Of a stretch of 64,000 nucleotides of DNA, positions 22,334 to 40,821 are shown piece after piece. Made by a program: the position numbers and the translations under genes. Within the stretch, counting starts at the first letter, position 1; the number at the start of each line of letters is the position of its first letter. The notes below the pieces were generated by a model. It did not search any database and had not been told where the DNA came from. It saw nothing but the letters and a program-made list of their open reading frames with translations. This DNA is from Segatella oris (GTDB taxonomy: Bacteria > Bacteroidota > Bacteroidia > Bacteroidales > Bacteroidaceae): the NCBI RefSeq assembly GCF_900637655.1, contig NZ_LR134384.1, positions 3,016,501 through 3,080,500 of the forward strand. The letters run 5' to 3'.

Positions 22334-24589
22334 TAAAATCCGATGCGGTTCAATAATAACATCGTTCGCGTAATCACTACTTGAACCAATCTGCGGTTTC
22401 AATTCTAATAAGGTTCAATTATAACTACTTGCCAGCGTGTCATGCCGGGATACATCTTCATTTCAATTCCAATAAGATTCAATTATAACCTATGCGTAAT
22501 TCCTTCCCTTTCATCTCATTTGTGTTTCAATTCCAATAAGGTTCAATTATAACTTTTTATTGTTGTTAGTATACGTTCAATCTCATCACATTTCAATTCC
22601 AATAAGGTTCAATTATAACTTATAGGACGCTTCGCAAGCTCGCTAATTCGCTCAAATTTCAATTCCAATAAGGTTCAATTATAACTGATGGCATATCCGA
22701 TAACCAACAGTACAAAGAAATTTCAATTCCAATAAGGTTCAATTATAACAAGGTTATGTTGAGCGTGAAGCGAATAATGACCCATTTCAATTCCAATAAG
22801 GTTCAATTATAACAGTATAATTGTCATCCCTTGCATTATATGTGCATGTATTTCAATTCCAATAAGGTTCAATTATAACAGTATTTTGCGTCTTATTTTG
22901 TGCCTTACAGTTATTTGATTTCAATTCCAATAAGGTTCAATTATAACATGCTGACGGTCATACTTATGATAATGCCGAATTTGGATTTCAATTCCAATAA
23001 GGTTCAATTATAACCTTAAGTGTCTCCTTATTGATAAGGGCTGCTTTTTTCGATTTCAATTCCAATAAGGTTCAATTATAACTGTTTCTCCTTTATTCAC
23101 AACCGCACAGGCAATGCATTTCAATTCCAATAAGGTTCAATTATAACAGAGGCAAGTGGTGCAGCAATCTATCCTGATACACAATTTCAATTCCAATAAG
23201 GTTCAATTATAACAAGAAACAATATCTTTCAGCACCGCTTCCATTTCATTTCAATTCCAATAAGGTTCAATTATAACTTTTATCGTAATGGATTAGTATT
23301 GACTAATTTACTGAATTATTTCAATTCCAATAAGGTTCAATTATAACTTGAGCCGGAGGGAGGTTACAACTGCATGAGCCTGTATCAATTTCAATTCCAA
23401 TAAGGTTCAATTATAACTTTGATTTTCCGGCTCGGATGCAACAGCTTGTCTTATTTCAATTCCAATAAGGTTCAATTATAACATTGAAGGAGGACAAGGC
23501 CGAATATATCAACGCCTATTTCAATTCCAATAAGGTTCAATTATAACTAGAGATTGTTCATCGACAGGGAAGCAGCAATTCCTATTTCAATTCCAATAAG
23601 GTTCAATTATAACCTGTGCTGCAGCCAAATTTGCAATGTACTTCTGCATTTCAATTCCAATAAGGTTCAATTATAACGCTGTTTGAGTGCCTTCTTCCTT
23701 TTTGAACTCTGTCATTTCAATTCCAATAAGGTTCAATTATAACGGTCAACAATTCCCTCTAAATTTGAAAAAATAGCAAATTTCAATTCCAATAAGGTTC
23801 AATTATAACTGTCAAGCGGTTTGCACTATGCTTCACTCCTTCTACATTTCAATTCCAATAAGGTTCAATTATAACTATCATCGGCTATGTCGACGCGCGA
23901 AATACAAGTATTTCAATTCCAATAAGGTTCAATTATAACCTCAAATTGAAGCTAATAAGACTGCGTCTCCTGTATTTCAATTCCAATAAGGTTCAATTAT
24001 AACAATTGTTTGAGAAGTTGAACCCTGTGCTTTCTAAATTTCAATTCCAATAAGGTTCAATTATAACCCCCTCTCATTATATGTGTATGTTAGATTGGTT
24101 CATTTCAATTCCAATAAGGTTCAATTATAACCGATAAAGGTGTTTCAAGGTTCTGTTCCGAACGTATTTCAATTCCAATAAGGTTCAATTATAACGATTA
24201 GTTGGAACTTTTAATGTTAATAATAAAGACAGATTTCAATTCCAATAAGGTTCAATTATAACCTGGAGGTATGTTGAATGCAAGCGCCCTGGAACAAATT
24301 TCAATTCCAATAAGGTTCAATTATAACATCGGCATAGGCGGCCCGGGCTGCATCGTTTGCCATTTCAATTCCAATAAGGTTCAATTATAACTACGGTGCA
24401 GATAATCTGTACCCGCAGAACATCAATTTCAATTCCAATAAGGTTCAATTATAACGCAATGATTTGAATGAGCGATTGAAGAAAGTTGAGGGATTTCAAT
24501 TCCAATAAGGTTCAATTATAACGCAGCTTTCACACTTGCAGCATTGAAACCTATTCCCAATTTCAATTCCAATAAGGTTCAATTATAAC
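22331..24589 (-). CRISPR. Type I-B CRISPR array, 34 good repeats plus a degenerate end unit
   Basis: The 30-bp repeat (plus strand begins ATTTCAATTCCAATAAGG and ends TTCAATTATAAC) occurs 34 times from 22396 to 24589, with 33 spacers of 33-40 bp. A half-preserved repeat (22331-22360) and another spacer lie to the left. Decay and single-base variants (first base G, CTAATA, AAGATT) are at the left, so the left is the trailer end. The leader and cas2 are on the right. The transcribed form is therefore the minus strand and ends GGAATTGAAAT, giving the usual ATTGAAAT crRNA 5' handle. Four spacers match the prophage in this window exactly (22554-22589, 24263-24297, 24328-24361, 24523-24559), and one matches partly (24456-24492). 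Confidence 0.98.
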
Positions 24590-24648
24590 CCACTCTTTTA
24601 AAAGAGATAAGTCGAATAAACACTAATGTTTTCAGCAATACAAAGGTA
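24590..24648 (-). promoter_or_regulatory. CRISPR leader with promoter
   Basis: A minus-strand -7 box TACCTTTG (24641-24648) points into the array; transcription would start near 24635. The perfect palindrome CTCTTTTAAAAGAG (24593-24606) lies four bases from the first repeat, where integration takes place. The remaining bases to the cas2 stop (24802) are AT-rich and show no gene. Confidence 0.6.
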
Positions 24649-24801
24649 ATAAAAATCATTGAAAAAATGTCGATGCCCAATGATATATTTTCCATAGAGC
24701 ATCGACATTCCCTTTTATATAAGGTGTTTCAAGAAGTCAAAGAGCGATATGGGCATCTACGGGAAAATGAAAAGGACACCTATTCCTACACATCGACAAC
24801 T

Positions 24802-25065
24802 TTACAGAAAGTTCTCTGTTGACATTCGCTCCTTGCCAAGAATATCCTTACTCATATGATAACCCTTTTTATTAGAGAATATTATCACACTATCCTCTTT
24901 TTTATCAATTAAGTTTCCTATCTTATACTGCAACTCCCGCAGTTTAACTTCTGACAGTTCGCCTTCAAACACAGAATTCTGTATCCAACAAAGATATTGC
25001 CGACATAATTTCAGCATTTTACTAACACGCTTCTCTGCCACATCATAAATCAGGATAACATACAT
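24802..25065 (-). CDS. cas2: Cas2, CRISPR adaptation protein
   Basis: An 87-residue small ferredoxin-fold protein. The opening MYVILIYDVAEKRVSKMLKLCRQYLCWIQNSVFEGEL is the classic Cas2 start (beta strand with the conserved Asp in YDV, then the 'NSVFEG' segment). Cas2 dimers bridge two Cas1 dimers in the integrase that inserts new spacers at the leader end. The gene is 4 bases downstream of cas1 and closest to the leader, the normal type I-B order. It looks intact, but its operon promoter is probably separated from it by the prophage. Confidence 0.97.
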   Translation of the reverse strand: MYVILIYDVAEKRVSKMLKLCRQYLCWIQNSVFEGELSEVKLRELQYKIGNLIDKKEDSVIIFSNKKGYHMSKDILGKERMSTENFL

Positions 25066-25069
25066 ACAA

Positions 25070-26086
25070 TTACCAATACATCTTAAAAGGTTTATATTCT
25101 TCTATCCCGAGTATATCTTTCAAGAGCTTATAACACTCAAGTTTTATCAGATGACGATAACTCACATTACGCCCCAAGGAACGATGACGGAATGTTTCAT
25201 TATAACGTTCCTCCATGGCTGCAACAAAGATCTTTTTCCCTTTATCATTTAGAAGGCAACGATTCAATTTCCTATCAAAATGACTCTTTTGAAGCGCACG
25301 TTTATTAAGTACTTTGAATATAACCCGATCAACTATAATCGGTTTGAAGATTTCAGATATGTCCAAGCATAAAGAATAACGGCGTTCTCCTGGCTTATGC
25401 AAAAAACTAATCGTAGGGTTCAGCTGTGTTTGATGAATTGCGCGCAGCGTTTCTGTATAGCACATCATATTACCAAAAGAAACTAAAGCATTCACTTCAT
25501 TCTCGGGAGGTTGCTTCGTGCGACTGCCAAACTTAAAATCATCAAGTACGATATCAAAAGCAGAATAATAAATTCTACGAATATTCCCTTCTATTCCCAT
25601 CACTTCTTCAACAGTTTTTGCTTCAGGAAGAGTTTGTGCAAATTCTTTCATTTCGGCAATCTGCCCTTCAAGTTCTTTTCCTCTCCTATTATAATAGTTC
25701 AAATTCATCACCATATTCCATGCCGCACCTTGAATGAACTTTCTTGCCAGCTCTACCCGTTTTTTCGAACTTTGATATGTTTTTACCTGTGCCAATAAAG
25801 CCTTTCCCGAAAGCAGTCCTGCACGAGGCATGAAACTCCCTGTATAATTCTCATAATAATCGAAGAAATGAACAGGCACATCGCGTTGCCCCAGAAAATT
25901 ATATAGAGAACTATTCGCTTTCAAACTACCAAAAGCATATAATTCAGCAACATCCTCTATCGGAATAAAACGAGATGGTTGCTTCGTTTCATTTCCTTGT
26001 TCATCTATGCTAATAGGCGTAAACTTCAATGTATTGTCTTTACGCTCCATCAATCCCGGATTAAACAAATAGAAGCTCCTTTTCAT
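25070..26086 (-). CDS. cas1: Cas1, CRISPR adaptation integrase (type I-B)
   Basis: A 338-residue protein beginning with MKRSFYLFNPGLMERKDNTLKF. Catalytic-type residues are visible: Glu in VMGIEGNIRRIYY, His in TISFLHKPGERRYSLCLD and Asp in CLDISEIFKP, in the order E-H-D expected for Cas1. It overlaps cas4 by four bases (ATGA) and is followed by cas2. The gene is full length. Recent acquisition is suggested by well-preserved leader-end repeats. Confidence 0.97.
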   Translation of the reverse strand: MKRSFYLFNPGLMERKDNTLKFTPISIDEQGNETKQPSRFIPIEDVAELYAFGSLKANSSLYNFLGQRDVPVHFFDYYENYTGSFMPRAGLLSGKALLAQVKTYQSSKKRVELARKFIQGAAWNMVMNLNYYNRRGKELEGQIAEMKEFAQTLPEAKTVEEVMGIEGNIRRIYYSAFDIVLDDFKFGSRTKQPPENEVNALVSFGNMMCYTETLRAIHQTQLNPTISFLHKPGERRYSLCLDISEIFKPIIVDRVIFKVLNKRALQKSHFDRKLNRCLLNDKGKKIFVAAMEERYNETFRHRSLGRNVSYRHLIKLECYKLLKDILGIEEYKPFKMYW

Positions 26087-26601
26087 AAATCTTCCTCCAT
26101 CTCATTTGAATAACAGAACTCAAAATAGCTACAATTCTTACATAGACCTTTCTTCACTATAGGAGGGCATAAATCCAGTTCTATAATATTACAGATATCT
26201 TGCCGAATTAAAGCAATATTTTCGCGATCCACATCTGTCAATACTACTTCCGATGTCTTTCTAAGCTCAGGATATTCCAATATTCCTTTCACCCCATTAA
26301 TACCATGCTGTTCGAAAACATACATATAGTATTTCAGCTGCCATTCATGCGCCTTAGCAACCTTATTAGATTTTTTAATCTCATGAATAACTTTATTCCG
26401 AGCATCATAGTAATCTACTTTTATGCCATCTATCGCAACTTCTTCATACTTCACCGAGCGCTGCGGATAACTATCTTCATGTATCAGTTTGCCTTCATAC
26501 ACCAAGTCCGAATTATGTTCCATGTTTATGCCATTAGCAAACAGCCACAACTTTCGCCTACAAAGCTGATAATAATTAAAATGAGTTCCAGTAACAATCA
26601 T
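26083..26601 (-). CDS. cas4: Cas4, RecB-like nuclease of CRISPR adaptation
   Basis: A 172-residue PD-(D/E)XK nuclease. The N-terminal Cys (LCRRKLW) and a C-terminal Cys cluster (CPPIVKKGLCKNCSYFEFC) would ligate the iron-sulphur cluster. The nuclease core is visible as GIKVDYYDARNKVIHEIKKSN (D and E-x-K motifs) followed by a QLKYYMYVF helix. Cas4 trims prespacers and selects PAMs. Four-base overlaps with cas3 upstream and cas1 downstream indicate a tight operon. Confidence 0.95.
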   Translation of the reverse strand: MIVTGTHFNYYQLCRRKLWLFANGINMEHNSDLVYEGKLIHEDSYPQRSVKYEEVAIDGIKVDYYDARNKVIHEIKKSNKVAKAHEWQLKYYMYVFEQHGINGVKGILEYPELRKTSEVVLTDVDRENIALIRQDICNIIELDLCPPIVKKGLCKNCSYFEFCYSNEMEEDL

Positions 26602-28832
26602 AGAAAAATATCTCCCCCTATTTGCTTTTCTGTTTCTGAAAATACTAACCCAAGCCTTTCATCATACTCACTATTGATTACATATTGTTTTATACTTATA
26701 ATCTGCTTATCCTCATTCTTTGAATATACAAATGTTTTCTGCTCAATATTTCCTTCATGTAGCATATTAGCAAACCTGCGCTTACTAATAGACACTAATA
26801 GTCCCTCGGCTTTGACAAATTGAAGATTAGATATTCTACTTTGATATTCTGGTACCAATGCAGCAGGAATAACTTTTTTATCATCGAATTGCTTATAGAA
26901 TTCTTCCTCTCTTTCTGCAGAATATTCCAATGGACGTAAATCTTTCTCCACATAATCTTCAAATAAAGTTTTTGTCATTGAAAAATCTTCTTGTTCTTCT
27001 TCTGACCAACATGGATAAACAACATCTATCAATGCCTGTAATTTATTTTCTTGGATTATACCACCTTCATCTTGCTCTATTTGTTTCAAGACCTCCAATG
27101 TTCTTTCTATCACTCCCGCATTTTTATAGATATATTTATCTGCATCATTTCTTTCCTTGAATACATAGCAAGGACAAATTCCTTTTTCCCGTTTTCTATT
27201 AACCCTCCCAAAACGCTGTAAAAGAGCATCAAGGGGTGCTGGAGCTGTATAAATAAGATCAAAATCTACATCCAGGCTTATTTCTATAGCTTGTGTACCA
27301 ACTAAAAGTGACACATCATCTTCTTTCAATTTTACTTCATTCTTAAATCTATCTTCTGCACAAAAGCGTCCATGAAGTAGAACTTTTTTCGAAGCATGCA
27401 GATATTTATAAACCATTTGAGACTCATCAACAGTATTGCATACAACAAGAACTTTCTTACCTTGATTGATATCCACTTGTATATTATCTAAATAATCTGT
27501 CAACAAACCATCCAAGCAAAATAGACGATGTCGTCTGAATGAGAGATACAGCTGCTTATCCGCAATGATTTCTTGATAAGGACCTATAACAGATGCTATT
27601 TTGCATCTCATAAAAGTTGGCAGAGTTGCCGTCATTATATGCACCCTGACCTTCAAATACTGAACAGCAAATGATAATAGCACTATTATCTGAGCAAAGA
27701 TCTTAACTTCATAGGCATGTATTTCATCGATGATAAAATAACCTCCACTCCATTCAAAGATACCTTTTTCGAAACCTTTTATTCCAAAAAGATGCTTTAG
27801 TAATTGAAATGGCGTAACTATCTTCAAAGGCATTAGCATGGACTTAAAGTCTTCTACTTGCTCTTGAAGTTTAATAGTATCTATAGAATGATTTTCCATT
27901 TGCAGATCCAAATACTGCATTAGATTTCCATGTAGTAATCCAACTTTTTTTGAAGAATCACCTATACAGGAGTTCAAACGCTTATACATTGCATTTATGG
28001 AAGCTGTATAAGGTAGTATATAGTAAACTCTTCCTTGTCCTCTATGTTCTAATTGATTCTTCAACCATACAAGAGCAGCTTCTGTTTTTCCAGCCCCCGT
28101 TGGTGCATTAAGAATAACACTACAAGAAGCCTCTGCATCTCGTAACTGATGGGTAAAGAATGGGTATTTATATAAAAAGGCAAAATCAGTTTTTTCCAGA
28201 CGATATAAGTGTTTTATACCCGCAGAGGCCATATGGTCACAATGCTTTATTGCCCCAATAAATAATATATTCTCTATATTAGCTTTTCCTTCGATATTTT
28301 TATTTTTTGCTAATCGAAGTATACTCTTAATACAAGGAACATTTTTTGTAATAAGGTTCAGTTCATATCTATCTAATATTTCCTTTATTTCTTCATAACA
28401 TAATTTATCACATTCATCAGCATACGATAAACCTTCTTCATCCCAATCTTCATCATTATAATAATTACGATTGACAAAATCAAAAAGATCACCTAACGAC
28501 TTATGATGCCCTAACACACCGAATGATACTAAAGTCTTTTCTGATTCTGATAAATTAGAATTATGAATAAAATAAATAGAAAATAACTCATGCCGCTGAT
28601 GATACCATAAAGATGCCTTACCCAAAAGTGTTTTTTGAAACTCAACATGTCCTTTACCAGTATCATGCATTATGAGGCTCTTTCTAACAATATTCCAAAA
28701 AGACGCTTTATCTTCAACAGGAATATTGGATATAACCATTGACAACTGCCTACAGATAGAGAGGCAGTCATCAATGTGTTCATTCAGAGATATCTTTGGA
28801 TTTGATTTTGCAAGAAGGATTGAACGTTCCAT
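26598..28832 (-). CDS. cas3: Cas3, HD nuclease-helicase of type I interference
   Basis: 744 residues with both activities in one chain. The N-terminal HD nuclease shows NEHIDDC, IMHDTGKGHVEFQ and LGHHKSLGD. The SF2 helicase follows, with Walker A NAPTGAGKTEAALVW, DEAH-type IIDEIHAYE, MTATLP, VCNTVDES and the motif VI region DALLQRFGRVNRKREKG. Cas3 degrades DNA at which Cascade has formed an R-loop. The gene is complete, but without Cas8 it should not be recruited. Confidence 0.97.
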   Translation of the reverse strand: MERSILLAKSNPKISLNEHIDDCLSICRQLSMVISNIPVEDKASFWNIVRKSLIMHDTGKGHVEFQKTLLGKASLWYHQRHELFSIYFIHNSNLSESEKTLVSFGVLGHHKSLGDLFDFVNRNYYNDEDWDEEGLSYADECDKLCYEEIKEILDRYELNLITKNVPCIKSILRLAKNKNIEGKANIENILFIGAIKHCDHMASAGIKHLYRLEKTDFAFLYKYPFFTHQLRDAEASCSVILNAPTGAGKTEAALVWLKNQLEHRGQGRVYYILPYTASINAMYKRLNSCIGDSSKKVGLLHGNLMQYLDLQMENHSIDTIKLQEQVEDFKSMLMPLKIVTPFQLLKHLFGIKGFEKGIFEWSGGYFIIDEIHAYEVKIFAQIIVLLSFAVQYLKVRVHIMTATLPTFMRCKIASVIGPYQEIIADKQLYLSFRRHRLFCLDGLLTDYLDNIQVDINQGKKVLVVCNTVDESQMVYKYLHASKKVLLHGRFCAEDRFKNEVKLKEDDVSLLVGTQAIEISLDVDFDLIYTAPAPLDALLQRFGRVNRKREKGICPCYVFKERNDADKYIYKNAGVIERTLEVLKQIEQDEGGIIQENKLQALIDVVYPCWSEEEQEDFSMTKTLFEDYVEKDLRPLEYSAEREEEFYKQFDDKKVIPAALVPEYQSRISNLQFVKAEGLLVSISKRRFANMLHEGNIEQKTFVYSKNEDKQIISIKQYVINSEYDERLGLVFSETEKQIGGDIFL

Positions 28833-28834
28833 TT

Positions 28835-29509
28835 TTACTCTTCTTTTCCTAATCTTAAGTGATGCATATAGATATCAACATCTTCCCCATTGATACTATC
28901 CCGCAATGCACTAAGATCTGTTGAAAAATCATCACTATTACATCCAATAACAGAGTAAGCTTCCGTACCAACATTCTCACGAGGAATAGTATTCGTAAAA
29001 TACTTTGGCAATGCCTGTATAGTACCTGGTAAAAAATTACTATTGAAAGGAACTATCTGCCCTTTTATTTTACTCGCATTATTAACCTCTTTCAAATCGC
29101 AAATAACTATATCTTCTATGGTTGCCAAGTCACAACTTCTACCAAGAAGAATCTGAAAAGCAGGAGTTTGGAAATATTTCACAAAGTCTTTATCAATGAT
29201 ATATATATATAAAGTATTATCGAATAGAAATTGTCTATTTATAACATTCGATTTTACCTGTTTTTTGGCAGTACCTTTATCATATTTCATTTGATAAATA
29301 GTTTCCAAATCATTAGATATTGACCGATAATTAAAATAATATCCAATCTCCATATCTGCATGATTAAGATAGCGCCCCGCACAAGCATTCATAAGTCCTA
29401 ATATGGTACTTAAGGGGGGAACTTCTAAAGTTGGCTGATAACCAGATATTATATTTGGATATCTAAAACTTGCAGTCCATGCCGATATTTTAATACGGAA
29501 AACCTTCAT
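28835..29509 (-). CDS. cas5: Cas5, Cascade subunit (type I-B, Cas5t-like)
   Basis: A 224-residue RAMP protein. The opening MKVFRIKISAWTASFRYPNIISGYQPTLEVPPLSTILGLMNACAG is typical of Cas5, where the Trp/Phe-rich strand is followed by PPLSTI-x-GL. Cas5 binds the crRNA 5' handle and caps the Cas7 backbone. The gene lies two bases before cas3 and shares one base with the cas7 stop. It appears intact. Confidence 0.93.
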   Translation of the reverse strand: MKVFRIKISAWTASFRYPNIISGYQPTLEVPPLSTILGLMNACAGRYLNHADMEIGYYFNYRSISNDLETIYQMKYDKGTAKKQVKSNVINRQFLFDNTLYIYIIDKDFVKYFQTPAFQILLGRSCDLATIEDIVICDLKEVNNASKIKGQIVPFNSNFLPGTIQALPKYFTNTIPRENVGTEAYSVIGCNSDDFSTDLSALRDSINGEDVDIYMHHLRLGKEE

Positions 29510-30564
29510 TATTCTATTAGCGTCTTAACTTCTTTTATATATTCATCAACAGCAATATTTATAGATTGATAGACCACAATATCATCAAAATCAGAGACCA
29601 ACGCTTTAATATCCTCATCATACTCATCGAAAAAGCCACTACGCCTACCGATATAGAGCTTCCCTACAAAAGTATCTTTGTAATCTATTAGAACTTGCCT
29701 CAAACCTTCCATATTCAAAACAACTCGTTCATTTCGTTCACCAGCATTCTTCACTATATGTGAGAACGGATGATTACCAGTACTCGATGTAACCAGAATA
29801 ATTAGTTTCGGGGTAACATCTCCCATGTTACTTGTCTGCATAGCACCACCACTGATATTCTTCAATGCTGCAATAGTATCTGCTATACGCTCCTTTCGCA
29901 CATGCTGAGGCAGACGTAAAAGTTTCCCTTTCCCAAACAAATCATCTATTTCTACAGCACCATTCTCAATAGCTTTTTTCTTTAAATCATCTGATAGATT
30001 CCTATAACCGCTACGATTATAATCTGAAAAAGTTGAAATTGCATTAATATCCAAAGAGAACATCCCTTTCATAACTGCGCTATATTCTTGCTTTACAAAA
30101 GGAACGGAATCTCCCTCTTGACGTGACATACTTGACCAGTTCATTGCAGGACGTGTTGCTGCTACAGATATCAAAGCAGAATTTTTCAATGGGGAAACTC
30201 TTGTAACCGTTATATTCTTTGTTTTCTTCTTTCCCTTTTCATCTTCATTTGTTTCTGATGCAGCACGCATATAACCAAACACATCATCATCAGGATAGTC
30301 TATAGGATTAGTATTAGTAAATACTATAGACTTGCCTCTCGTTATAGGAGAAAGTGTCCAACCATAAACATATTGCAGAGTCTCTCTCCACCAATATCGC
30401 CAGGCTTGACCAGAGACATACACATAATTTTGCCCATCCTTGTTAATAGACTTTGTCCTTGTTATATTATCATTATTAGATATTGTATCTTTTCCTGCAT
30501 TATTCAAGGCTACAACATCCACATCTAACAACACAAATCCTTGAACATTTAAATTCCTTTCCAT
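29509..30564 (-). CDS. cas7: Cas7, Cascade backbone (Cst2/DevR family)
   Basis: A 351-residue RAMP protein. The start NLNVQGFVLLDVDVVALNNAGKD and the VSGQAWRYWWRETL motif are typical of the Cst2/DevR Cas7 family of the I-B 'Tneap' variant. The protein also has the long insert ending in KNISGGAMQTSNMGDVTPKLIIL. Several copies coat the crRNA spacer. Start and stop are intact and fit the operon spacing, 11 bases after the cas8 fragment. Confidence 0.93.
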   Translation of the reverse strand: MERNLNVQGFVLLDVDVVALNNAGKDTISNNDNITRTKSINKDGQNYVYVSGQAWRYWWRETLQYVYGWTLSPITRGKSIVFTNTNPIDYPDDDVFGYMRAASETNEDEKGKKKTKNITVTRVSPLKNSALISVAATRPAMNWSSMSRQEGDSVPFVKQEYSAVMKGMFSLDINAISTFSDYNRSGYRNLSDDLKKKAIENGAVEIDDLFGKGKLLRLPQHVRKERIADTIAALKNISGGAMQTSNMGDVTPKLIILVTSSTGNHPFSHIVKNAGERNERVVLNMEGLRQVLIDYKDTFVGKLYIGRRSGFFDEYDEDIKALVSDFDDIVVYQSINIAVDEYIKEVKTLIE

Positions 30565-30575
30565 ACGTTTTTATT

Positions 30576-31268
30576 TTAATTATTAGAAACTTCATTATCG
30601 TTATTCATATCCTTATGCAACTGATGCAATCGTTCATAAATTGCTATCAATAAAACATCGCGCATTTCCATCCATGAATCTAAATCAGGGAATAAATAGT
30701 CTGCATACTCATTTACTGTGACTATTGCGTCTTTATTTCCTTCTTCATAGTTCTTTGCTATAATATCTTTCAACACAAAACGTCTCAACAAATAAGAATT
30801 TGTAACACTATCTAACTTTTTAATTGCCTTTTCTATTATCAAACAATCATTGCACGCTGTAATAAAATCAGCTATTTGCTCAATTTTATCAATACTTTCT
30901 TTTTTCATATGTCTTATTTTTATTGCATATATTCTAGTTATTTTAAAACTCACTAAAGCTATTCTGCTATAAGATAACAAGTAAGGAATAATAGATTTAT
31001 TATTTAACAAATAATCATAAATAACATTACTCCAATACTGATATTCTTCTGGGGAAACTATCGTCTTCTGCTTCTTATTCTGTACTTCATAACTATCAAC
31101 ATCCTTATTATATTTTATACCTTTTTTATAGTAATAGCGTCGCACAAAGTTATGCCAAAAATCCTTATACTGGACTTTTTGCATTAAACTATAAAATTGT
31201 AAGGTTTGGAAAGGTAAGTTATAAATAGACAAACTAGGTGAAGTCCCAAAATTTGTAAAATGATACAT
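30576..31268 (-). CDS. cas8: Cas8 (Cst1-like) C-terminal fragment, cut off by the prophage
   Basis: Only 230 residues from the first ATG (31268). The frame stays open upstream through FADIFDGKQRNLV to the presumed prophage boundary at 31308. The position directly before cas7 is that of cas8/cst1, whose usual length is near 500 residues with CxxC zinc motifs in the N-terminal half. No such motifs are present here. The segment HFTNFGTSPSLSIYNLPFQTLQFYS resembles the middle of Cst1. I infer that this is the 3' part of a cas8 gene interrupted by phage insertion. A chance -7-like box (31292-31299) might drive the fragment. Cas8 recognises the PAM, so interference should be lost. Confidence 0.7.
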   Translation of the reverse strand: MYHFTNFGTSPSLSIYNLPFQTLQFYSLMQKVQYKDFWHNFVRRYYYKKGIKYNKDVDSYEVQNKKQKTIVSPEEYQYWSNVIYDYLLNNKSIIPYLLSYSRIALVSFKITRIYAIKIRHMKKESIDKIEQIADFITACNDCLIIEKAIKKLDSVTNSYLLRRFVLKDIIAKNYEEGNKDAIVTVNEYADYLFPDLDSWMEMRDVLLIAIYERLHQLHKDMNNDNEVSNN

Positions 31269-31328
31269 TACTAAATTCCTTTGTTTTCCATCAAATATAT
31301 CAGCAAAATGTATATAAGGGGCATAAAA

Positions 31329-31560
31329 CGAAATGTAACAAAATGGAAGATGATAGAAAACGACTATATACGTTGATATTCAATCAGTTAGGACGAAATT
31401 AGACAAAGACAGCTTGCAAAACGAAATGTTACATTGCGTTACATTCGTGTTACATTTAGGGGATTATTTGAACAGTGTTTGAAGCATAAATGTTACATGG
31501 GTGAAAAATAGGGCTACATGAGACGGCGTTTTGATTGAAGACGGGTTATTTGTAACATGA
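31329..31560. repeat. TGTTACATT-type repeats at the prophage left end
   Basis: Copies include ACGAAATGTAACA (31329), ACGAAATGTTACATT (31421), then GTTACATT at 31439 and 31450 spaced 10-11 bases apart, ATGTTACATG (about 31490) and TGTAACATG (about 31551, inverted). Their position next to the TG end suggests transposase-binding end sites. Host-gene coding potential ends at 31308, and no gene is seen between there and 31740. Confidence 0.55.
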
Positions 31561-31739
31561 ACACGATAGAGGACGGCACAGGCGAAGGAAAAGGCTTTAT
31601 CGGGTGATTTGAGAATGTTTGAAGTATGGCAGAAGCAGTTGCATCCTGCCTTTTATTTTGTCGCAAAGAATAAAATATAAGTCATTGAAATATCGTATAT
31701 AATTATTATTTTGTATATTTGCAGCAAAAAGAAGTAAAT

Positions 31740-31952
31740 ATGACTAAGGTAATACACGTACAATTGATGCAGGGACGAAAGAACTATTATTTCGGTTCTA
31801 TTCCTGCGATTTACAGCGTTCTAACGGCTGAAGAGATAGGGATAAAGCAGTGTTCATTAGAACGCGTAGGGTTGAGCAAGGGAGGCGTTGTACTGAACAA
31901 AAAGGCATGTATCAGGGCAGGCAAACTTATACGCTCTAAAACAACAAAATGA
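31740..31952 (+). CDS. Small conserved Bacteroidota protein, function unknown
   Basis: A 70-residue basic protein (MTKVIHVQLMQGRKNYYFGSI, then SVLTAEEIG and AGKLIRSKTTK). I have the impression that similar small proteins ('VIHVHLxxGxKNYYFGS') are widespread in Bacteroidota, but I cannot name the family. A -7 box TATATTTG (31714-31721) and the spacer GCAGCAAAAAGAAGTAAAT precede the start, which I placed at 31740 rather than at the in-frame ATG-like codon 21 bases upstream. It is the first gene inside the prophage. Confidence 0.6.
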   Translation: MTKVIHVQLMQGRKNYYFGSIPAIYSVLTAEEIGIKQCSLERVGLSKGGVVLNKKACIRAGKLIRSKTTK

Positions 31953-32084
31953 GGATGCATTTGAACAGCTAAAACGCTGATTGAACGACACTTGAACGGC
32001 TTTCAATATGTTTTTGAACGGTTGGAGGCCGTTTTTCGTGTTTTCAGGAGTAAAATGAGGGCGATTTTGGGGTAAAAAATGGGA

Positions 32085-32162
32085 TTGGGGTGACACTTGG
32101 GGTGACGATTGGGGTGACAGTGCAAAACGAAATGTATCGATTGGGGTGACATTAGGGGTGAC
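32085..32162. repeat. Five TTGGGGTGAC iterons with 12-bp spacing
   Basis: Copies at 32085, 32097, 32109, 32141 and 32153 (the last TAGGGGTGAC) give a 3 + 2 cluster with a 12-bp period. Between the clusters is GCAAAACGAAATGTATCG, which resembles the left-end motif. The pattern suggests a protein-binding array. Minus-strand open frames here translate the repeat (HPNRHPKCHPNP) and are not genes. Confidence 0.75.
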
Positions 32163-32334
32163 ACTTTTAACATAAATAGAATTGAATTAGCCCCCCTCAC
32201 AATAACCGAATATTGTTGATTACGTTCGTTTTTGTCGTTTTTACCCCCCCCCATATTCCAAAGGTATAGGGTTTATTGCCGTCTATTTGTAAGTGGAAAA
32301 TTTGTAAAACGTTGTGTTTATCGGGCTTTTTAGC

Positions 32335-32342
32335 TATATTTG
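32335..32342 (+). promoter_or_regulatory. Predicted -7 box before the 186-residue membrane protein
   Basis: TATATTTG fits TAnnTTTG. A TTG (32312-32314) lies 20 bases upstream as a possible -33 box. The start codon of the gene is at 32392. Confidence 0.5.
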
Positions 32343-32391
32343 CGGTGTTAAATCATAAAAAAGTGTGCGCGCGGCGCATAAGGAGGGCAAT

Positions 32392-32952
32392 ATGGAACAG
32401 ACATTTAAGATTAGTGATGAGCAGTGGGAGCGTTTGAATGATGCAACGTTTAGAATTGTACTGGAGCGTTCAGATAAGCTGGTTGCAAGTTCACTTGAAC
32501 AGCTGCGCAAGTCTACAGACCGCGCCTATACCCTTTTTGGTTTCCTACTTACTGTTTTCTCAGGAATAACCGCTTACTTGATTAGGTGTGTGGATATAAC
32601 TGTTCTGCTTCCGTGTGTTGTATTGTGGTTGGGGTGTGGTATAGCTACTGCATTGATGTTTTCCAAGGCAATATGGGTACACCCTTTTATCCATCAGGGA
32701 AACCAGCCACGTTATTTAATCACCAAAGAGCTTATAGATGCTTATAAATCGAATGGTGCATACCAGCACACGCTTTTGGTGTCTGCCATAGAAGAAAATC
32801 AATATTGCTACGACTACAATTCAAACATATTGGCGAAGCGTGCAAAAGTAATTAAATGTGTGATGAAGGTTATAAAGGCAACCTTTTTAATGGTTGCCGT
32901 TATAACCATACTCATTAAACTGGCTGAATATCTGAACTATCCATTGAATTAG
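32392..32952 (+). CDS. Prophage membrane protein of unknown function (accessory gene)
   Basis: 186 residues from ATG 32392, with AGGAGGG directly upstream acting as an unusually good ribosome binding site for this phylum. The soluble N-terminus (1-44) is probably helical. Membrane segments are predicted at about 45-64, 68-91 and 163-180, with a soluble loop of about 70 residues between the second and third. I do not recognise the family. The position between the phage end and the repressor, outside the lytic gene order, is typical of lysogenic-conversion genes, so superinfection exclusion, defence or anti-defence is possible but unproven. Confidence 0.7.
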   Translation: MEQTFKISDEQWERLNDATFRIVLERSDKLVASSLEQLRKSTDRAYTLFGFLLTVFSGITAYLIRCVDITVLLPCVVLWLGCGIATALMFSKAIWVHPFIHQGNQPRYLITKELIDAYKSNGAYQHTLLVSAIEENQYCYDYNSNILAKRAKVIKCVMKVIKATFLMVAVITILIKLAEYLNYPLN

Positions 32953-33068
32953 TGTATACAGCATCTGGGGTTTGAGGTCTTGGATATTTCTCCTTTTCCT
33001 CTTCGTCTTTTTCTTTTGCCATAATTGTTGAAGTTAAAGTGAATATTAAGTTTGAAATTATTTAATGT

Positions 33069-33839
33069 TTACATAAATCGGCTTATGTTCCCGAGTACTT
33101 CGAAGATGCGGAGAATGCGGGAATTGTCGTATTCCTGCTCATCGTAGTTTTCCTCGTTGATGGGCACGTAACGCATTCTGTTCGGGTCATTGGACTTGCG
33201 AAGTATCTTGACGGTGCGAATAGTATCGAGGACAACGGCATAGATTTCGCCGTATTGCACATCCTCAAGTCGGCATTCCTTAAGCGCAATGATATCCCCA
33301 TGGTTGATTTTAGGTTCCATGGAATGCCCCGTGATGTTCACCCAGGTGACCCCCAACTTGTTAAATGGCTTGAAGTCAATGTTGTATTCAGGGGTGACAG
33401 TCTGATTATTAAATGTAAGGTCAAAGCCTCCAAGGAAGTCCACATCATAGTATGGTGCACCTTTACTGGGAGTGTATGAGACGGAGGGTTCAGAAAGAAG
33501 TGCCTCCGTTATAGAATTTTCTTCTTGTTTTTTGGGGTAAATCGCCTTATTTTTCTTATCTTTAGGGTCGGGAATTGCGTCTTCAGCTACACTGCATGAT
33601 TGGTTACTACCTTTCGTTTTGAGCATAGGACCATTGCCAGTAAGGAGCCAATCTGCTGACAAATTCGGATATGTAGTTAAAATTTTAACTATCATATCTC
33701 CGCCAAGTTGACTTTGCATATTTTTCCCCTTAAAATTGCTATCTTTAATGCCTGTTGTATTAAAGAAATCAACTTTTTTAATCCCTGCAGAATCTAAAAA
33801 GGTAAGAATTTTGCCTTTTATGGTTAAATTTTCCTCCAT
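33069..33839 (-). CDS. Prophage repressor: helix-turn-helix plus S24 (LexA-type) domain
   Basis: 256 residues. Residues 1-70 form an HTH region (ILTFLDSAGIKKVDFFNTTGI, ending ADWLLTGNGPML). The linker runs to about 125, and the S24 peptidase fold carries Ser173 (GHSMEP) and Lys211 (TVKILRK), the catalytic pair of self-cleaving repressors. This predicts release of lysogeny on DNA damage. It is divergent from the early genes. Candidate operators GTTAAAATTTTAAC and relatives lie within and before the gene. The length is normal for phage CI-like proteins. Confidence 0.93.
   Translation of the reverse strand: MEENLTIKGKILTFLDSAGIKKVDFFNTTGIKDSNFKGKNMQSQLGGDMIVKILTTYPNLSADWLLTGNGPMLKTKGSNQSCSVAEDAIPDPKDKKNKAIYPKKQEENSITEALLSEPSVSYTPSKGAPYYDVDFLGGFDLTFNNQTVTPEYNIDFKPFNKLGVTWVNITGHSMEPKINHGDIIALKECRLEDVQYGEIYAVVLDTIRTVKILRKSNDPNRMRYVPINEENYDEQEYDNSRILRIFEVLGNISRFM
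33676..33689. promoter_or_regulatory. Palindromic candidate operator inside the repressor gene
   Basis: GTTAAAATTTTAAC is a perfect 14-bp palindrome. Related copies are at 33822-33834 (GGTTAAATTTTCC) and 33851-33863 (GGTTAAAATTTTA), the last one inside the early promoter. Confidence 0.5.
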
Positions 33840-33843
33840 TTTA

Positions 33844-33874
33844 TTTGTTAGGTTAAAATTTTATCTTATCTTTG
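33844..33874 (+). promoter_or_regulatory. Predicted early promoter overlapping a repressor operator
   Basis: The -33 TTTG (33844-33847), 19-bp spacer and -7 TATCTTTG (33867-33874) fit the consensus exactly. GGTTAAAATTTTA (33851-33863) fills the spacer, where bound repressor would block polymerase. It drives the early genes that start at 33994. Confidence 0.7.
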
Positions 33875-33993
33875 CAACATGTTTAATACATAAACACCGC
33901 GCCAAAAATACAAAAAAGGGGCGAGAAACAAGAATGTTTAATTAAAAATATAATAAACTTAACGCTGCGCTACCGGCATGACGGGCAAAGAAT

Positions 33994-34197
33994 ATGAGAT
34001 TAAGCACATACAAAGAGAACGGTTACAATTACACACATGTTGCAGTGTTTGTTGACAGCTTGGGACAGCTTGAATACAAGGTGGGTACTAAAAAGACACT
34101 TGAAAGAAAGCAGTACAATGGTGAACTTCCACTTTTCTTCGAAATTTTGACTTTCAAGCAAGCAGCAACTAAATACCCTGAATATTTTACATTATAA
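33994..34197 (+). CDS. Small early prophage protein, function unknown
   Basis: 67 residues (MRLSTYKENGYNYTHVAVFVDS to YPEYFTL) that I do not recognise. It is the first gene after the early promoter, about 115 bases downstream of the predicted transcript start. In Mu-like phages this place is held by Ner-like or other early control proteins, but no helix-turn-helix is visible here. Confidence 0.6.
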   Translation: MRLSTYKENGYNYTHVAVFVDSLGQLEYKVGTKKTLERKQYNGELPLFFEILTFKQAATKYPEYFTL

Positions 34198-34236
34198 CTA
34201 TTTCAGCCCTATCGCAACACGGTCAAGCGACATATT

Positions 34237-34449
34237 ATGAAGTTTTATTCTACAGCGTACAATTCAAATTACAAGGTTGAAAGAAATGATAACAATATAT
34301 CTCTCATGGGGATTGATGCACCGATTTACGATAGAGCAGAAGCAGAAATCGTCATGCAAGAATATCTTGATAGCACAGGTGAGGAGGGGGAAGTAGGTGC
34401 AGCCTATGAAACTGACGAAGAGGGATGGTGGACAGCCAAAATCTTATAA
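34237..34449 (+). CDS. Small acidic early prophage protein, function unknown
   Basis: 70 residues with a strongly acidic C-terminal half (YLDSTGEEGEVGAAYETDEEGWW). No recognised family. Its stop codon shares a base with the start of the next gene (TAATG), which points to translational coupling. Small acidic early proteins of phages can act as nucleic-acid mimics, but nothing further supports that here. Confidence 0.6.
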   Translation: MKFYSTAYNSNYKVERNDNNISLMGIDAPIYDRAEAEIVMQEYLDSTGEEGEVGAAYETDEEGWWTAKIL

Positions 34450-34682
34450 TGACTTCATCTGTAAGGATAAAGAATATGAACGGGAAACTCTTAGACAAGG
34501 TTGACGTTGAGAAAATAGAAGCGCTGGTTGACGCATTAAGCGGGGTGATAAGTGACATGCGCATTACAGGAGAAAATAGCGAGACCTGCTTTTGCAATGA
34601 AGCATATTGGGCATGTTATTCTTTAAGAAATATGATGTTTACATCTCTAAGACATCGGGAACAAAATAGACAGGGTGAATAG
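34449..34682 (+). CDS. Small early prophage protein, function unknown
   Basis: 77 residues from ATG 34449 (MTSSVRIKNMNGKLLDKVDVEKIEALVDALSGVI, then cysteines in TCFCNEAYWAC). The start at 34449 was chosen over an upstream one because of the TAATG coupling with the previous gene. No family recognised. It ends 16 bases before the tRNA-like sequence. Confidence 0.55.
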   Translation: MTSSVRIKNMNGKLLDKVDVEKIEALVDALSGVISDMRITGENSETCFCNEAYWACYSLRNMMFTSLRHREQNRQGE

Positions 34683-34697
34683 ATTGTAGGATAACCC

Positions 34698-34767
34698 AAG
34701 GCGGCTACGTCCGAATGGTAGCGGACCAGAACATCTCGGCAACTGGGGTTCGATTCCCCTCCGCCTA
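34698..34767 (+). tRNA. tRNA-like remnant (probable pseudo-tRNA)
   Basis: AAGGCGG and CCGCCTA pair at six of seven positions as an acceptor. GTCC/GGAC flank GAATGGTAGC as a D-arm, and GGGG/CCCC enclose TTCGATT as a T-arm with a good B-box. Only 17 bases separate the D-stem from the T-stem, instead of about 22, and no anticodon stem can be drawn. I therefore call it a shortened tRNA relic or tRNA-like structure, not a working tRNA. Confidence 0.4.
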
Positions 34768-34794
34768 CAAACATAATATTAATAAAGGAAAGAT

Positions 34795-35172
34795 ATGGAA
34801 AAGAAGATTTATGTAAGTGACAAAGCAAAGACGCAGCTTTGCAAGATATTCAGCTGCTCTAAGATGATGGTGTGGTTAGCGCTGAATTTCAAGCGCGAGA
34901 GTGACCTGGCACGGAAGATACGTTACACGGCCCTGACGCAGTTCGGTGGCGTTCCAAGCTGGAAACCCGAGGAAATGGAAACCACTCACGAGGAGGTGGA
35001 AAAGACTATGACGCAGCGTTATGGAGAACGTGTAAAATTGGTGTACAACCGCAATGACGGCAGCACGAGTATACTTGTTGATGGTAAAGTTACTCGCAAG
35101 GAACAAGACTTGAGTATCCCTGCCTTCATGAAGTTGCAGAGTGAAGTTGAAATAATGGCTCTGAGCCTTTAA
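34795..35172 (+). CDS. Early prophage protein upstream of the transposase, possible regulator
   Basis: A 125-residue basic protein. The N-terminal part (ISVSDKAKTQLCKIFSCSKMMVWLALNFKRES-like) could fold as a helix-turn-helix, and the C-terminal part has a basic strand pattern (KLVYNRNDGSTSILVDGKVTRKE). The position just before the transposase is where Mu has ner. I do not recognise the family with certainty. It is 12 bases from the transposase start, so co-transcription is clear. Confidence 0.6.
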   Translation: MEKKIYVSDKAKTQLCKIFSCSKMMVWLALNFKRESDLARKIRYTALTQFGGVPSWKPEEMETTHEEVEKTMTQRYGERVKLVYNRNDGSTSILVDGKVTRKEQDLSIPAFMKLQSEVEIMALSL

Positions 35173-35184
35173 AGCCTTAACGGG

Positions 35185-37287
35185 ATGGAATATTACAATA
35201 AAATATTGTGTGTAACCTACGCGGAACTGACTGAAGGTAATGATGCGATTATAAAAGCTGCTACATTACGTCAGAATATGAGCCGTGGCAATATCGTCAG
35301 CGTTCACCGTGGAGGCGGCGAAGGCGGTCAGGCACTCTACGCTTGGAGTTCCATTCCTCAAAAATATAAGGAGCGGTATATGGAACGTTACGGCGACCCC
35401 GAGCAGCGCATGAAGGAAGCAATGATACGAGATCGGGTAAAACTGGATAGTGATGCACACACTTGGTATACGGACTACAAATATGAGTTGAATGGAGAAA
35501 TGACTAAATTAACTCCAGAACTCATAGAAGAGTACACCATCAACGCCAGCGTACTGAATGAATTGCTGAAGCTGATGGCACAGCGCCGAGCAATCCGCCA
35601 GAGTCTGAACAGTAGCACAGCAGGAGCATGGGACGTCATTTATAAGAGTTCTGAAGCCATGCGTGAGGAATATCACCATACGTTGCCGCAGAACGCAGCA
35701 CGTCTGAAGACGAAGATTAAGGCATTCAAGGCCGATGGGTATAAGAGCCTTATCAGCGGCAAGGTTGGAAACCGTAACACGGTGAAAATGACAAAGGAAT
35801 TCGGACTTCTTCTCATTGCCCTGAAGCGCAGCCGAACACCAGTCTATACCGATGCGCAACTCTTCGAAGAGGGGAACCGCCGAGCAATAGAGAACGGCTG
35901 GAAGCCACTGAAGAGCTTGGCGGGTATGAAACGGTGGCTATACAGTTCGGCAACACAACAACTATGGTATGATGCCGTGCATGGCGAGAATGCCGCCCGC
36001 CTTAAATTCGGCAGGAAGCAGAGAACGAAACTACCTACACGCCGCGATTCGCTTTGGTATGGTGATGGAACACGCCTGAACCTGTATTATCAGGATATGG
36101 AAGGAAATGTGCGTACGACACAGGTTTATGAGGTGATTGATGCCATGAGCGAAGTAATGCTGGGCTACTGGATAAGCGACTCAGAAGATTATGAGGCACA
36201 ATATCACGCTTTTCGAATGGCTGTTCAGACCAGTGGACACAAGCCCTACGAGATTGTACATGACAACCAGGGCGGACATAAGAAACTAAACAAGGTTCAG
36301 CCGAACTCAAATGGAAAAGGCTTCTTGGACAAAATATGCCATATCCACCGTGCCACAATGCCAAACAACGGATCTTCCAAAACGATTGAGGCCATTTTCG
36401 GACGCTTTCAGCAGCAGGTTCTTCATCAGTATGACAACTTTACGGGGCAGAACATTACTGCAAAGAAAGCCAGCAGTCGACCTAATCTTGAGAGTATGGA
36501 AGCCAACAAGAAGGGCTTGCCTACATTAGACGAACTGAAAGCTATCTACGCCGAAGCACGGCAGAAGTGGAACTCCATGAAACACCCCATCTATGGTAAA
36601 AGCAGAATGGAAGTATATGAAAGCAGCGTAAACGAAGAGACGCCTGTTGTAACACCCGTAGACATGGTTGATATGTTCTGGATTATGCACGACAAGCCTG
36701 CAACATTTACCGACCAGGGTATCACTATTGAGGTGAAAAAACAGAAATATACATGGGAGGTGTTCAAGAACGGAGAACCAGACTTGGAATGGCGTAAACG
36801 GCATACGTGGGAAAAGTTCTATGTTCAATATGATCCAAACGACATGACCACGGTTAATCTCTATGCGATTGACCTTGCTGGTGGAAAGCGTTTTTCAACC
36901 GTGGCACGCCCCTACTGGGAGATACACCGTGCATTGCAAGATCAGAGTGCAGAGGAAAAGACACAGATACACAAGGCCATCGAAGCTGGTAAGAACGACC
37001 GCATAGAACGTGTAATAGCAGGCAGACGCATCGCTATTGCACATGGTACTGACCCTGAACAGAACGGACTCATCTATCCGAAGCTGAAGGGGCTTAACAA
37101 AGAGCAGCAGGATCAGGCTCAATCAAGATTTGCCCTGTATGCCAAACCGCCCCAAAAATTCACGTTGGGACAAATAACTAAGCAAATAAGTCTTACGGAT
37201 TGGAGTGAGGAGGTCAATTCGAATAAAGAACAAGACATTACTGCACCGGTTAAGGTTGACATGGCTTCAGTAGCAGGAAAGTATTGA
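35185..37287 (+). CDS. MuA-like DDE transposase
   Basis: A 700-residue protein that would integrate and replicate the phage by transposition. The N-terminal region (1-80) carries a GGEGGQALYAW-type DNA-binding domain. The rve/integrase core has the catalytic triad Asp294 (WYGDGTRL), Asp360 (IVHDNQGGH) and Glu402 (SKTIEAIFGRF). The Mu-transposase C-terminal domain follows (WIMHDKPATFTDQGITIEVKK), with a basic end expected to contact the MuB-like ATPase. The length is close to MuA. It is coupled to the ATPase gene 28 bases downstream. Confidence 0.95.
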   Translation: MEYYNKILCVTYAELTEGNDAIIKAATLRQNMSRGNIVSVHRGGGEGGQALYAWSSIPQKYKERYMERYGDPEQRMKEAMIRDRVKLDSDAHTWYTDYKYELNGEMTKLTPELIEEYTINASVLNELLKLMAQRRAIRQSLNSSTAGAWDVIYKSSEAMREEYHHTLPQNAARLKTKIKAFKADGYKSLISGKVGNRNTVKMTKEFGLLLIALKRSRTPVYTDAQLFEEGNRRAIENGWKPLKSLAGMKRWLYSSATQQLWYDAVHGENAARLKFGRKQRTKLPTRRDSLWYGDGTRLNLYYQDMEGNVRTTQVYEVIDAMSEVMLGYWISDSEDYEAQYHAFRMAVQTSGHKPYEIVHDNQGGHKKLNKVQPNSNGKGFLDKICHIHRATMPNNGSSKTIEAIFGRFQQQVLHQYDNFTGQNITAKKASSRPNLESMEANKKGLPTLDELKAIYAEARQKWNSMKHPIYGKSRMEVYESSVNEETPVVTPVDMVDMFWIMHDKPATFTDQGITIEVKKQKYTWEVFKNGEPDLEWRKRHTWEKFYVQYDPNDMTTVNLYAIDLAGGKRFSTVARPYWEIHRALQDQSAEEKTQIHKAIEAGKNDRIERVIAGRRIAIAHGTDPEQNGLIYPKLKGLNKEQQDQAQSRFALYAKPPQKFTLGQITKQISLTDWSEEVNSNKEQDITAPVKVDMASVAGKY

Positions 37288-37315
37288 AAAGTAAAATCGT
37301 AAAAATAAAGATAAT

Positions 37316-38197
37316 ATGAAACTAACAAAAAATGAAAAGGGACAAATCCAGGAGTGCTTGAAGCAGTATGTCAGCAAGTACCCAAGTCAGAATAAGGCTG
37401 CACAGAGTCTGGTAGGAACGAGCAGCGCAACGGTGAGCAGCATTCTGCAAGGCAAGTGGGAAAACATCAGCGACGACATGTGGCGTAACCTTGCCTCACA
37501 GTTGGGAACAACGTCCGGCAATGACTGGCAGGTGGTCGAGACAAAAGCTTTTCAGGAAATGAACCTCGTCATGAAAGATGCCCAAGCCGTGAGAAATGTT
37601 ACGTGGATCGTGGGCGAGGCTGGCTGCGGCAAAACCACCACGGCACGCCTCTATGCTGCTGAAAACAGCGAGGTGTTCTACATATTGTGTTCTGAAGACA
37701 TGAAGAAGAGCGACTTCATTCGCGAGATTGCACGCCGCATCGGTCAGCGTACAGAGGGTTACAGCATCAGAGAACTGCTTGACAGGATCATTGATGATCT
37801 TATTCAGATGCAGGCACCGCTGTTGCTTTTCGACGAGGCGGATAAGTTGCCAGAGCGAGTCTTTCATTATTTCATCGACCTGTATAACCGTTTGGAGGAT
37901 AAATGCGGCATCGTCTTCTTCTCTACGAGCTACATCAAGCGTCGTATGACCATGGGGCTACGCTACAACAAATGCGGCTACAATGAGATCCACTCGCGCA
38001 TCGGCCGCAAGTTCTACGAATTAGAACCCACCGCCCCCCACGATGTCTATGCAATCTGCATGGCAAACGGTGTGACCGACAAAAGCCACGTCTCAGAGGT
38101 TGTAAAAGATGCAGAGGCGTATGATTTTGACCTGCGCCGCGTGAAAAAAAACATCCACCGCGTGAAGGTGATGCAAGCGCAAACGGCAGTCAAGTAG
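37316..38197 (+). CDS. MuB-like AAA ATPase, transposition target selector
   Basis: 293 residues. The N-terminus (1-75) is a helix-turn-helix (NKAAQSLVGTSSATVSSILQGKWENISDDMW). The AAA core has Walker A VGEAGCGKTTTA, Walker B LLLFDEADKL and a sensor-like VFFSTSYIKRR. MuB binds DNA and delivers target sites to MuA. Gene order transposase-ATPase is the standard Mu arrangement. The protein resembles ExeA/TniB-type ATPases as well, but the context favours MuB. Confidence 0.92.
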   Translation: MKLTKNEKGQIQECLKQYVSKYPSQNKAAQSLVGTSSATVSSILQGKWENISDDMWRNLASQLGTTSGNDWQVVETKAFQEMNLVMKDAQAVRNVTWIVGEAGCGKTTTARLYAAENSEVFYILCSEDMKKSDFIREIARRIGQRTEGYSIRELLDRIIDDLIQMQAPLLLFDEADKLPERVFHYFIDLYNRLEDKCGIVFFSTSYIKRRMTMGLRYNKCGYNEIHSRIGRKFYELEPTAPHDVYAICMANGVTDKSHVSEVVKDAEAYDFDLRRVKKNIHRVKVMQAQTAVK

Positions 38198-38226
38198 TGT
38201 TAAAACAATCCTAAAACAGTAATCAA

Positions 38227-38970: not shown

Positions 38971-38974
38971 AGTT

Positions 38975-39145
38975 ATGGCAAACAAGCGAGACAACCTGTT
39001 GTACAGGCTACGAAAAAAGGGCGTACAGGCCAACACCCGCGAACGTACCATCTTCTTCGGCGTGGGCGGCGATCCGTTCAAGATAATACAGATAAGGCGG
39101 CTCTACAGTGAGTTTCATTTCAATGTGCAATTAGTAATACAATAG
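38975..39145 (+). CDS. Small basic prophage protein, function unknown
   Basis: 56 residues from ATG 38975 (MANKRDNLLYRLRKKGVQANTRERTIFFGVGGDPFKI). The start was chosen because it lies 4 bases after the preceding stop codon. Very basic N-terminus. The family is not recognised, though similar short proteins commonly follow this NTPase in related prophages, as far as I recall. Confidence 0.55.
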   Translation: MANKRDNLLYRLRKKGVQANTRERTIFFGVGGDPFKIIQIRRLYSEFHFNVQLVIQ

Positions 39146-39149
39146 ACAA

Positions 39150-39605: not shown

Positions 39606-39612
39606 TATTAAG

Positions 39613-39987: not shown

Positions 39988-40214
39988 GTAAGGAAAAACG
40001 AACAATAGAAATTGCCCCTGGGCTGATGAGCCCAGGAGGGCGCATGGGAGAGCGCTTTTTGAGCCGTGGGCACGTATGCACCTATTGCCAAGGCAACGGC
40101 TACCACTGGCAGGAAAACTGCTATCGTGAACGCTACAAGCAAGGATGCCCCGTGTGTAAAGGCAGCGGAAGACTTGATGCGGTGGTGACGATTGAGTGGA
40201 AAGCAGGAGAATGA
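39984..40214 (+). CDS. Small zinc-finger protein with DnaJ-type CxxCxG repeats
   Basis: 76 residues. Two zinc-ligand motifs, CTYCQGNG and CPVCKGSG, form the DnaJ/TraR-like 'CxxCxGxG' pair. It overlaps the previous gene by four bases (ATGA). Function unknown; such small phage proteins may bind nucleic acid or partner proteins. Confidence 0.75.
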   Translation: MSKEKRTIEIAPGLMSPGGRMGERFLSRGHVCTYCQGNGYHWQENCYRERYKQGCPVCKGSGRLDAVVTIEWKAGE

Positions 40215-40814: not shown

Positions 40815-40821
40815 AACAGCT

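Follow-up and report, generated by a model that had tools for sequence, protein, structure and literature searches.

Comparative genomics supports the conclusion that, in Segatella oris, a Mu-like prophage (prophage A) inserted into cas8 in a type I-B CRISPR-cas locus that has spacers against that same prophage. The remainder of cas8 and the cas6 gene were likely displaced by a recombinational inversion of 76.6 kb between A and a second prophage of the same family (prophage B), a history to which we assign a probability of about 0.58. The genome is a single contig of 3.17 Mb (NZ_LR134384.1), of which a stretch of 64,000 nucleotides (positions 3,016,501 to 3,080,500), here called the window, contains the locus and most of prophage A (Table 1).

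Table 1. Positions in the window of the CRISPR-cas locus, prophage A and neighboring features
Feature	Position	Strand	Remarks
210-aa gene left of the array	19817..20449	-	next to an rRNA operon (5S end) in 5 of the 7 relatives fetched
545-aa gene	20638..22275	+	G378 homolog sits between the 210-aa gene and 5S rRNA
Type I-B CRISPR-cas locus	22396..31314	-	
CRISPR array	22396..24589	-	34 repeats, 33 spacers; apparently read from the cas2 side
cas2	24802..25065	-	family model
cas1 (type I-B)	25070..26086	-	family model
cas4	26083..26601	-	family model
cas3 (HD and helicase)	26598..28832	-	family model
cas5 (Cas5t)	28835..29509	-	family model
cas7 (Cst2/DevR)	29509..30564	-	family model
3' part of cas8b	30576..31314	-	first ATG at 31268; open, Cas8-like frame as far as the phage end
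TATA, host bases at the left end of A	31311..31314		right end of A has TAAA instead
Prophage A	31315..64000, past the window to genome position 3083078 (= window 66578)	+	35,263 bases
End repeats CGAAATGTAACA / CGAAATGTTACA / TGTTACATT at the left end of A	31329..31456		
Phage repressor (CI-like)	33069..33839	-	
MuA-like transposase	35185..37287	+	
MuB-like transposition protein	37316..38197	+	
Protospacer of spacer 3 (22554-22589)	43021..43056	-	0 mismatches, motif CCT
Protospacer of spacer 33 (24523-24559)	54713..54749	-	0 mismatches, motif CCA
Protospacer of spacer 30 (24328-24361)	60224..60257	-	0 mismatches, motif GCA
Protospacer of spacer 29 (24263-24297)	63130..63164	-	0 mismatches, motif CCT

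The cas8 remnant and the missing cas6 gene

The locus is, by its gene content, a damaged member of the type I-B CRISPR-Cas systems with Cas8b1/Cst1. Family models identify Cas7/Cst2, Cas5t, Cas3, Cas4, Cas1b and Cas2, which together with the C-terminal half of Cas8 are held in common with such systems, whereas full-length Cas8b and the operon Cas6 are both missing at the locus, the N-terminal half of Cas8 being the part that is absent. The preliminary description of this DNA had regarded the six genes from cas7 to cas2 as intact and tightly coupled, and their open frames, close packing and family-model matches agree with this.

The gene that precedes cas7 had been described as a truncated cas8, and it does encode only the C-terminal half: its product of 230 amino acids (compared with 459 to 573 in related loci) aligns only to residues 230-452 of a Cas8 relative of 473 amino acids. 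With the Cas8b1 model, the remnant scores 17.2 bits, just under the cut-off of 19.4, and its open frame scores 19.5, just over. The frame is open through the junction at 31314-31316 and continues into phage DNA, and Cas8-like residues, as judged by eye, end no more than a few codons short of the junction. A full-length frame of 459 to 573 amino acids is present in 21 of 23 related loci, the other two comprising one that ends at a contig edge and one that is degraded, and 19 of the 23 have a cas6 match upstream in the same locus, the contigs of the other four having no more than 961 bases upstream. These 23 loci belong to named genomes, and two of them are the source records of the queries L014 and L016. 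The short cas8 is evidently a lesion, not the normal form of the gene. Among 199 relatives, the cas8 gene was found only in this genome and in three of the same order. The absence of N-terminal CxxC motifs, previously taken as a sign of truncation, is not diagnostic, as the full-length proteins L014-L016 also lack them (by eye).

The reported lack of cas6 at the locus was confirmed for the readable genome, which excludes genome positions 3152001-3160000 (these read N). PF10040 was rejected as a Cas6 model because it is wrong for this lineage, the Cas6 proteins of relatives matching TIGR01877 and PF01881, and TIGR01877 was used for this reason. A profile search of the readable genome with TIGR01877 (positive in 8 of 14 control genomes) found no cas6, and a relative's Cas6 protein gave no match there in a search run without a positive control; nor was there a second place in the readable genome for the N-terminal half of Cas8.

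The split of cas8 and the separation of cas6 from its operon would be expected to prevent Cascade assembly and crRNA maturation. In the absence of an entire Cas8 protein, and of cas6 from the operon, there would be no Cascade to license Cas3, so that the cell would tolerate prophages carrying perfect targets. From the broken cas8 and the absent cas6, we infer that interference has been lost. A small-subunit-like C-terminal part, as in other type I systems, could still be produced from what is left of cas8. Elsewhere in the window, a tandem unit of 154 bases occurs at 9222-9560 and again at 18916-19563, with approximately 9.5 kb between the two places.

Prophage A and the spacers that match it

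Comparison of three prophage copies indicates that the first bases of A are AAGGGGC or TAAGGGGC (31315/31316) and the last are GCCGGATTAA. The start of the phage had been placed at 31309; cas8 does stop at the phage end, as was claimed, but that end is at 31315/31316, and the TGTATA before it belongs to the host. The genome of A also encodes terminase, portal, major head and tape-measure genes. Its MuA- and MuB-like transposition proteins place it among the Mu-like phages, and the proposed insertion of such a phage into cas8 is supported by the exact break of the frame, by these MuA and MuB homologs, by an end sequence common to two other copies, and by the spacers that match A perfectly. The MuA-like transposase is 52-54% identical over 96% of its length to those of the hankyphages (Bacteroides phage p00 and relatives) among the p00-type records listed, which have a host genus other than that of A; in the phage records, the only near DNA match to the first 24.7 kb of A is a stretch of 490 bases in the unannotated record MT835789.

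The spacers, compared with 654 kb of the 3.17-Mb genome, include four of 33 (spacers 3, 29, 30 and 33) that match A perfectly, in keeping with the self-targeting noted earlier, one with a single mismatch (spacer 13) and one with seven (spacer 32). Spacers 3, 29 and 30 match B perfectly as well, and spacer 30 also matches perfectly a third prophage of the family (prophage C). The three bases before the protospacer, with crRNAs read from the cas side, form a CCW motif at three of the four perfect protospacers, and the one-mismatch spacer has CCT; CCA and CCT resemble known I-B motifs. This crRNA direction is suggested by the repeat, which then ends ATTGAAAT, and by the degenerate repeats at the far end of the array. 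Three of the five spacers nearest cas2, which are presumably the newest, match A perfectly. For spacer 13 (23214-23247; see also L004:2886-2925), the match is to the start of the DNA methyltransferase gene of the prophage, at one mismatch for A and for B and at two for C.

A working CRISPR system would be expected to attack these resident prophages. The insertion may have been retained because it put an end to self-targeting, and selection for escape from self-targeting is plausible.

Prophage flanks and the other half of cas8

The preliminary description implied a single prophage, but the genome holds three copies of the family, with B and C in the opposite orientation to A. The left end of B is near 20855, from which B runs to the contig start and resumes at the contig end, and C extends from 152839 down to about 117539. 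The three prophages are mosaic: the left part of B is 95-96% identical to C, and its right part is 99.4-99.8% identical to A. A and B, inverted with respect to each other and about 76.6 kb apart, are 99.4% identical over 10.45 kb and 99.8% identical over 8.2 kb, the near-identical part starting at phage position 40837 and continuing toward the right end. Both ends of the contig (1 and 3168212) are in B, where they correspond to phage positions 51285 and 58026; the 6.7 kb in between is not in the assembly.

To the right of A, where the 5' half of cas8 and cas6 had been expected, there are instead phage genes followed by genes which we take to be DUF349, corA and ddh (these names, like sprA, ruvA, ftsH, fhs and LTA-like, were assigned by eye), and this rules out, in the assembled sequence, a location of cas8-5' and cas6 directly beside the right end of A. 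The preliminary description had itself named such an outcome as refuting its proposal. The likely reason is that the right flank of A is foreign. Nor do the ends of A have the short duplication that had been predicted, with TATA on the left versus TAAA on the right. The idea that insertion and gene loss were a single event is not sustained by these findings, which indicate a second step.

C has TTCA on both sides, and TAAA precedes B on its left; thus, a target duplication of four or five bases is seen at C only, the flanks being mismatched at A and the right flank of B reading N. Exact searches for the phage ends in viral contigs gave 0 and 1 hits, so the length of the duplication is taken from copy C alone, and the available part of the hankyphage paper has no passage with the term duplication. 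The TAAA to the right of A is the same as that to the left of B, which suggests that these two flanks were once the two sides of the insertion site of B, a four-base match being weak evidence by itself. C is not a candidate for the exchange of flanks with A, because the flanks of C carry the same bases and map approximately 1.2 kb apart in the relative G023 (the right-flank match being only 32 bases). The insertion site of C is the start codon of a gene that resembles formate-tetrahydrofolate ligase (name assigned by eye), to which the end of the prophage supplies an in-frame upstream ATG (L007:10318-10345).

Gene order in relatives bears on both flanks. In G378, the nearest relative found in a search of 398 genomes of this large genus (DUF349 85% identical), ddh-corA-DUF349 is followed at 4.4 kb, transposase-like genes included, by a 148-bp segment with a FopS sRNA, whose counterpart at the border of B shows 86.5% identity. 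FopS is, by its Rfam title, a family of paralogous sRNAs, of which a single match occurs in the 654 kb that were fetched. The DUF349 gene of G054 is convergent with sprA-ruvA directly beside it, with no FopS at this DUF349-sprA site; in S. oris, sprA and ruvA follow FopS and a GNAT gene beside B. The next gene is ftsH in 21 of 38 DUF349 stretches and sprA in one, several of the 38 being too short to include a next gene, and thus the FopS/sprA neighborhood is drawn from two genomes. Synteny with 420 kb of G023, where ftsH follows DUF349, is broadly rearranged, and G378 carries further rearrangements.

On the other side, the 210-aa gene left of the array adjoins an rRNA operon, with the 5S gene facing it, in five of the seven relatives fetched (G378, G459, G204, G237 and G093); there is no rRNA within 10 kb of it in G200, and in G257 the contig ends without an rRNA call. 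The gene is also present in five further genomes. In S. oris, there is no rRNA right of the CRISPR locus, and the operon starting at L009:12648 points toward the right end of B.

The evidence points to an exchange of right flanks between A and B, either by inversion in the cell or by a join in the assembly. Homologous copies in opposite orientations are present, one exchanged flank has the FopS segment and the TAAA in its favor, and the evidence for the other, to the right of B, is gene order in relatives. If the 76.6 kb separating the two prophages is turned back, both neighborhoods are restored at once, a result that fits the exchange. In the favored history of inversion, the starting point is the observed cut of cas8 at the left end of A, up to which its frame is open. 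The DUF349-corA-ddh flank now at the right of A, which has no repeat of the bases at its left, would once have belonged to B, which apparently landed between DUF349 and FopS/GNAT/sprA, and the own right flank of A (the cas8 5' half, cas6 and the rRNA operon) would now lie beyond the right end of B, both steps being suggested by flank bases and by the gene order that relatives show. On this reading, cas6 and the 5' half of cas8 are predicted within genome positions 3152001-3160000, and more narrowly between the right end of B, expected near 3159668, and the rRNA operon. If the rRNA operon is of the usual length, about 5 kb, some 3 kb of the N stretch would be left, enough for both.

It is possible, though rather unlikely, that the insertion into cas8 is real but that the right flanks are swapped in the assembly alone, the left side of A having been joined to the right flank of B because no reads spanned the near-identical right parts of the two prophages. 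In the cell, cas8 would then be split by one prophage with TATA at its flanks, and immediately to the right of this prophage would come the 5' half of cas8 and cas6. Such a join is made possible by the contig ends inside B and the 6.7 kb absent between them, and the near-identity from phage position 40837 to the right end is such that a wrong join would swap the flanks just as seen; against it, A and B differ by approximately 0.6% and 0.2% in the two aligned parts, differences that long reads could use. The insertion into cas8 is common to the inversion and to the assembly join, which differ only in the place of the cas8 5' half in the living cell.

A deletion of the cas8 5' half and cas6, mediated by the phage between A and the DUF349 region at the time of insertion or later, is improbable: it would leave unexplained both the four bases common to the right of A and the left of B and the rRNA operon, expected beside the CRISPR locus, that points to B, even though it is compatible with the lack of a target duplication at A and of cas6 in the readable genome, and phage-bounded deletions of a CRISPR region are known, in the available text, for the Mu-like phage DMS3 (PMC11406979). 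Least probable is older decay or an effector swap that shortened cas8 before the prophage landed beside it, with tolerance due to another cause such as an anti-CRISPR, a known means of escape for prophages according to the part of the source at hand (PMC6990116): the differing effector genes next to a near-identical adaptation module in G378 show that these loci recombine, and one of the 23 related loci has a degraded cas8, but the break coincides with the phage end, up to which the frame is open, and 21 of the 23 have a full-length cas8.

Genome surveys can be misled by an exchanged flank of this kind. When a prophage has split a cas operon and its flank has been exchanged with that of another prophage, the outcome can resemble simple gene loss, and hence checking only beyond the prophage gives a false refutation.

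Precedents and the adaptation module

A 2020 paper, to judge by its title, deals with temperate phages as a cause of type I CRISPR loss. The idea that targeted temperate phages drive this loss rests largely, in the portions of the literature consulted, on laboratory evolution in Pseudomonas. Here, in a type I-B system of another phylum, the broken effector gene contains the very phage that is targeted, and perfect spacers and an intact adaptation module remain. The accessible text of one study of P. aeruginosa PA14, with a prophage of the Mu-like phage DMS3 under self-targeting, describes phage-bounded deletions at the CRISPR region in seven isolates, one of the deletions starting in cas3, as well as frameshifts in cas7 and cas8 (PMC11406979). 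More generally, escapes from self-targeting include mutation or loss of cas genes and anti-CRISPRs, according to the part of a second source that was available (PMC6990116).

In both the DMS3/PA14 case, as far as that text goes (PMC11406979), and the present one, a transposable phage matched by spacers ends CRISPR activity, with phage-bounded rearrangements of the CRISPR region and polylysogeny, although here we infer the CRISPR loss from sequence. The differences are that DMS3/PA14 was a laboratory evolution in which the CRISPR system was another one, the spacer matched imperfectly, and the deletions for the most part removed the locus, whereas the S. oris case concerns a wild genome, a type I-B system and perfect matches, the array and adaptation genes being kept, cas8 split, and flanks apparently exchanged between two prophages. 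A literature search, mostly of titles and the starts of abstracts, found no report from nature of cas8 interrupted by a targeted Mu-like prophage. Mu-like phages are known from the laboratory to remove CRISPR loci that target them, and the S. oris locus is a naturally occurring type I-B variant of this. A fuller scenario, which we offer tentatively and consider unlikely as a whole, is that an arms race was ended by one jump: spacers would have been acquired against the phage lineage, the phage would have entered via the effector gene of the system targeting it, and the locus would survive as an adaptation-only CRISPR, its halves parted by an inversion that may flip between the two prophages.

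The S. oris and G378 arrays have no spacers in common, and none of the 29 G378 spacers is within 8 mismatches of A. The cas2, cas1 and cas4 DNA of S. oris (24802-26601) is 97.0%, 98.2% and 98.7% identical, respectively, to that of G378 (L102:4228-6027); the two genomes share about 68-89% identity in aligned housekeeping DNA, and there is no DNA match for cas3. The effector genes of G378 are other ones, including a Cas6-like gene of 260 amino acids, and its locus is at another place in the genome. The adaptation module thus seems to be shared with G378 by recombination, with the effector genes swapped.
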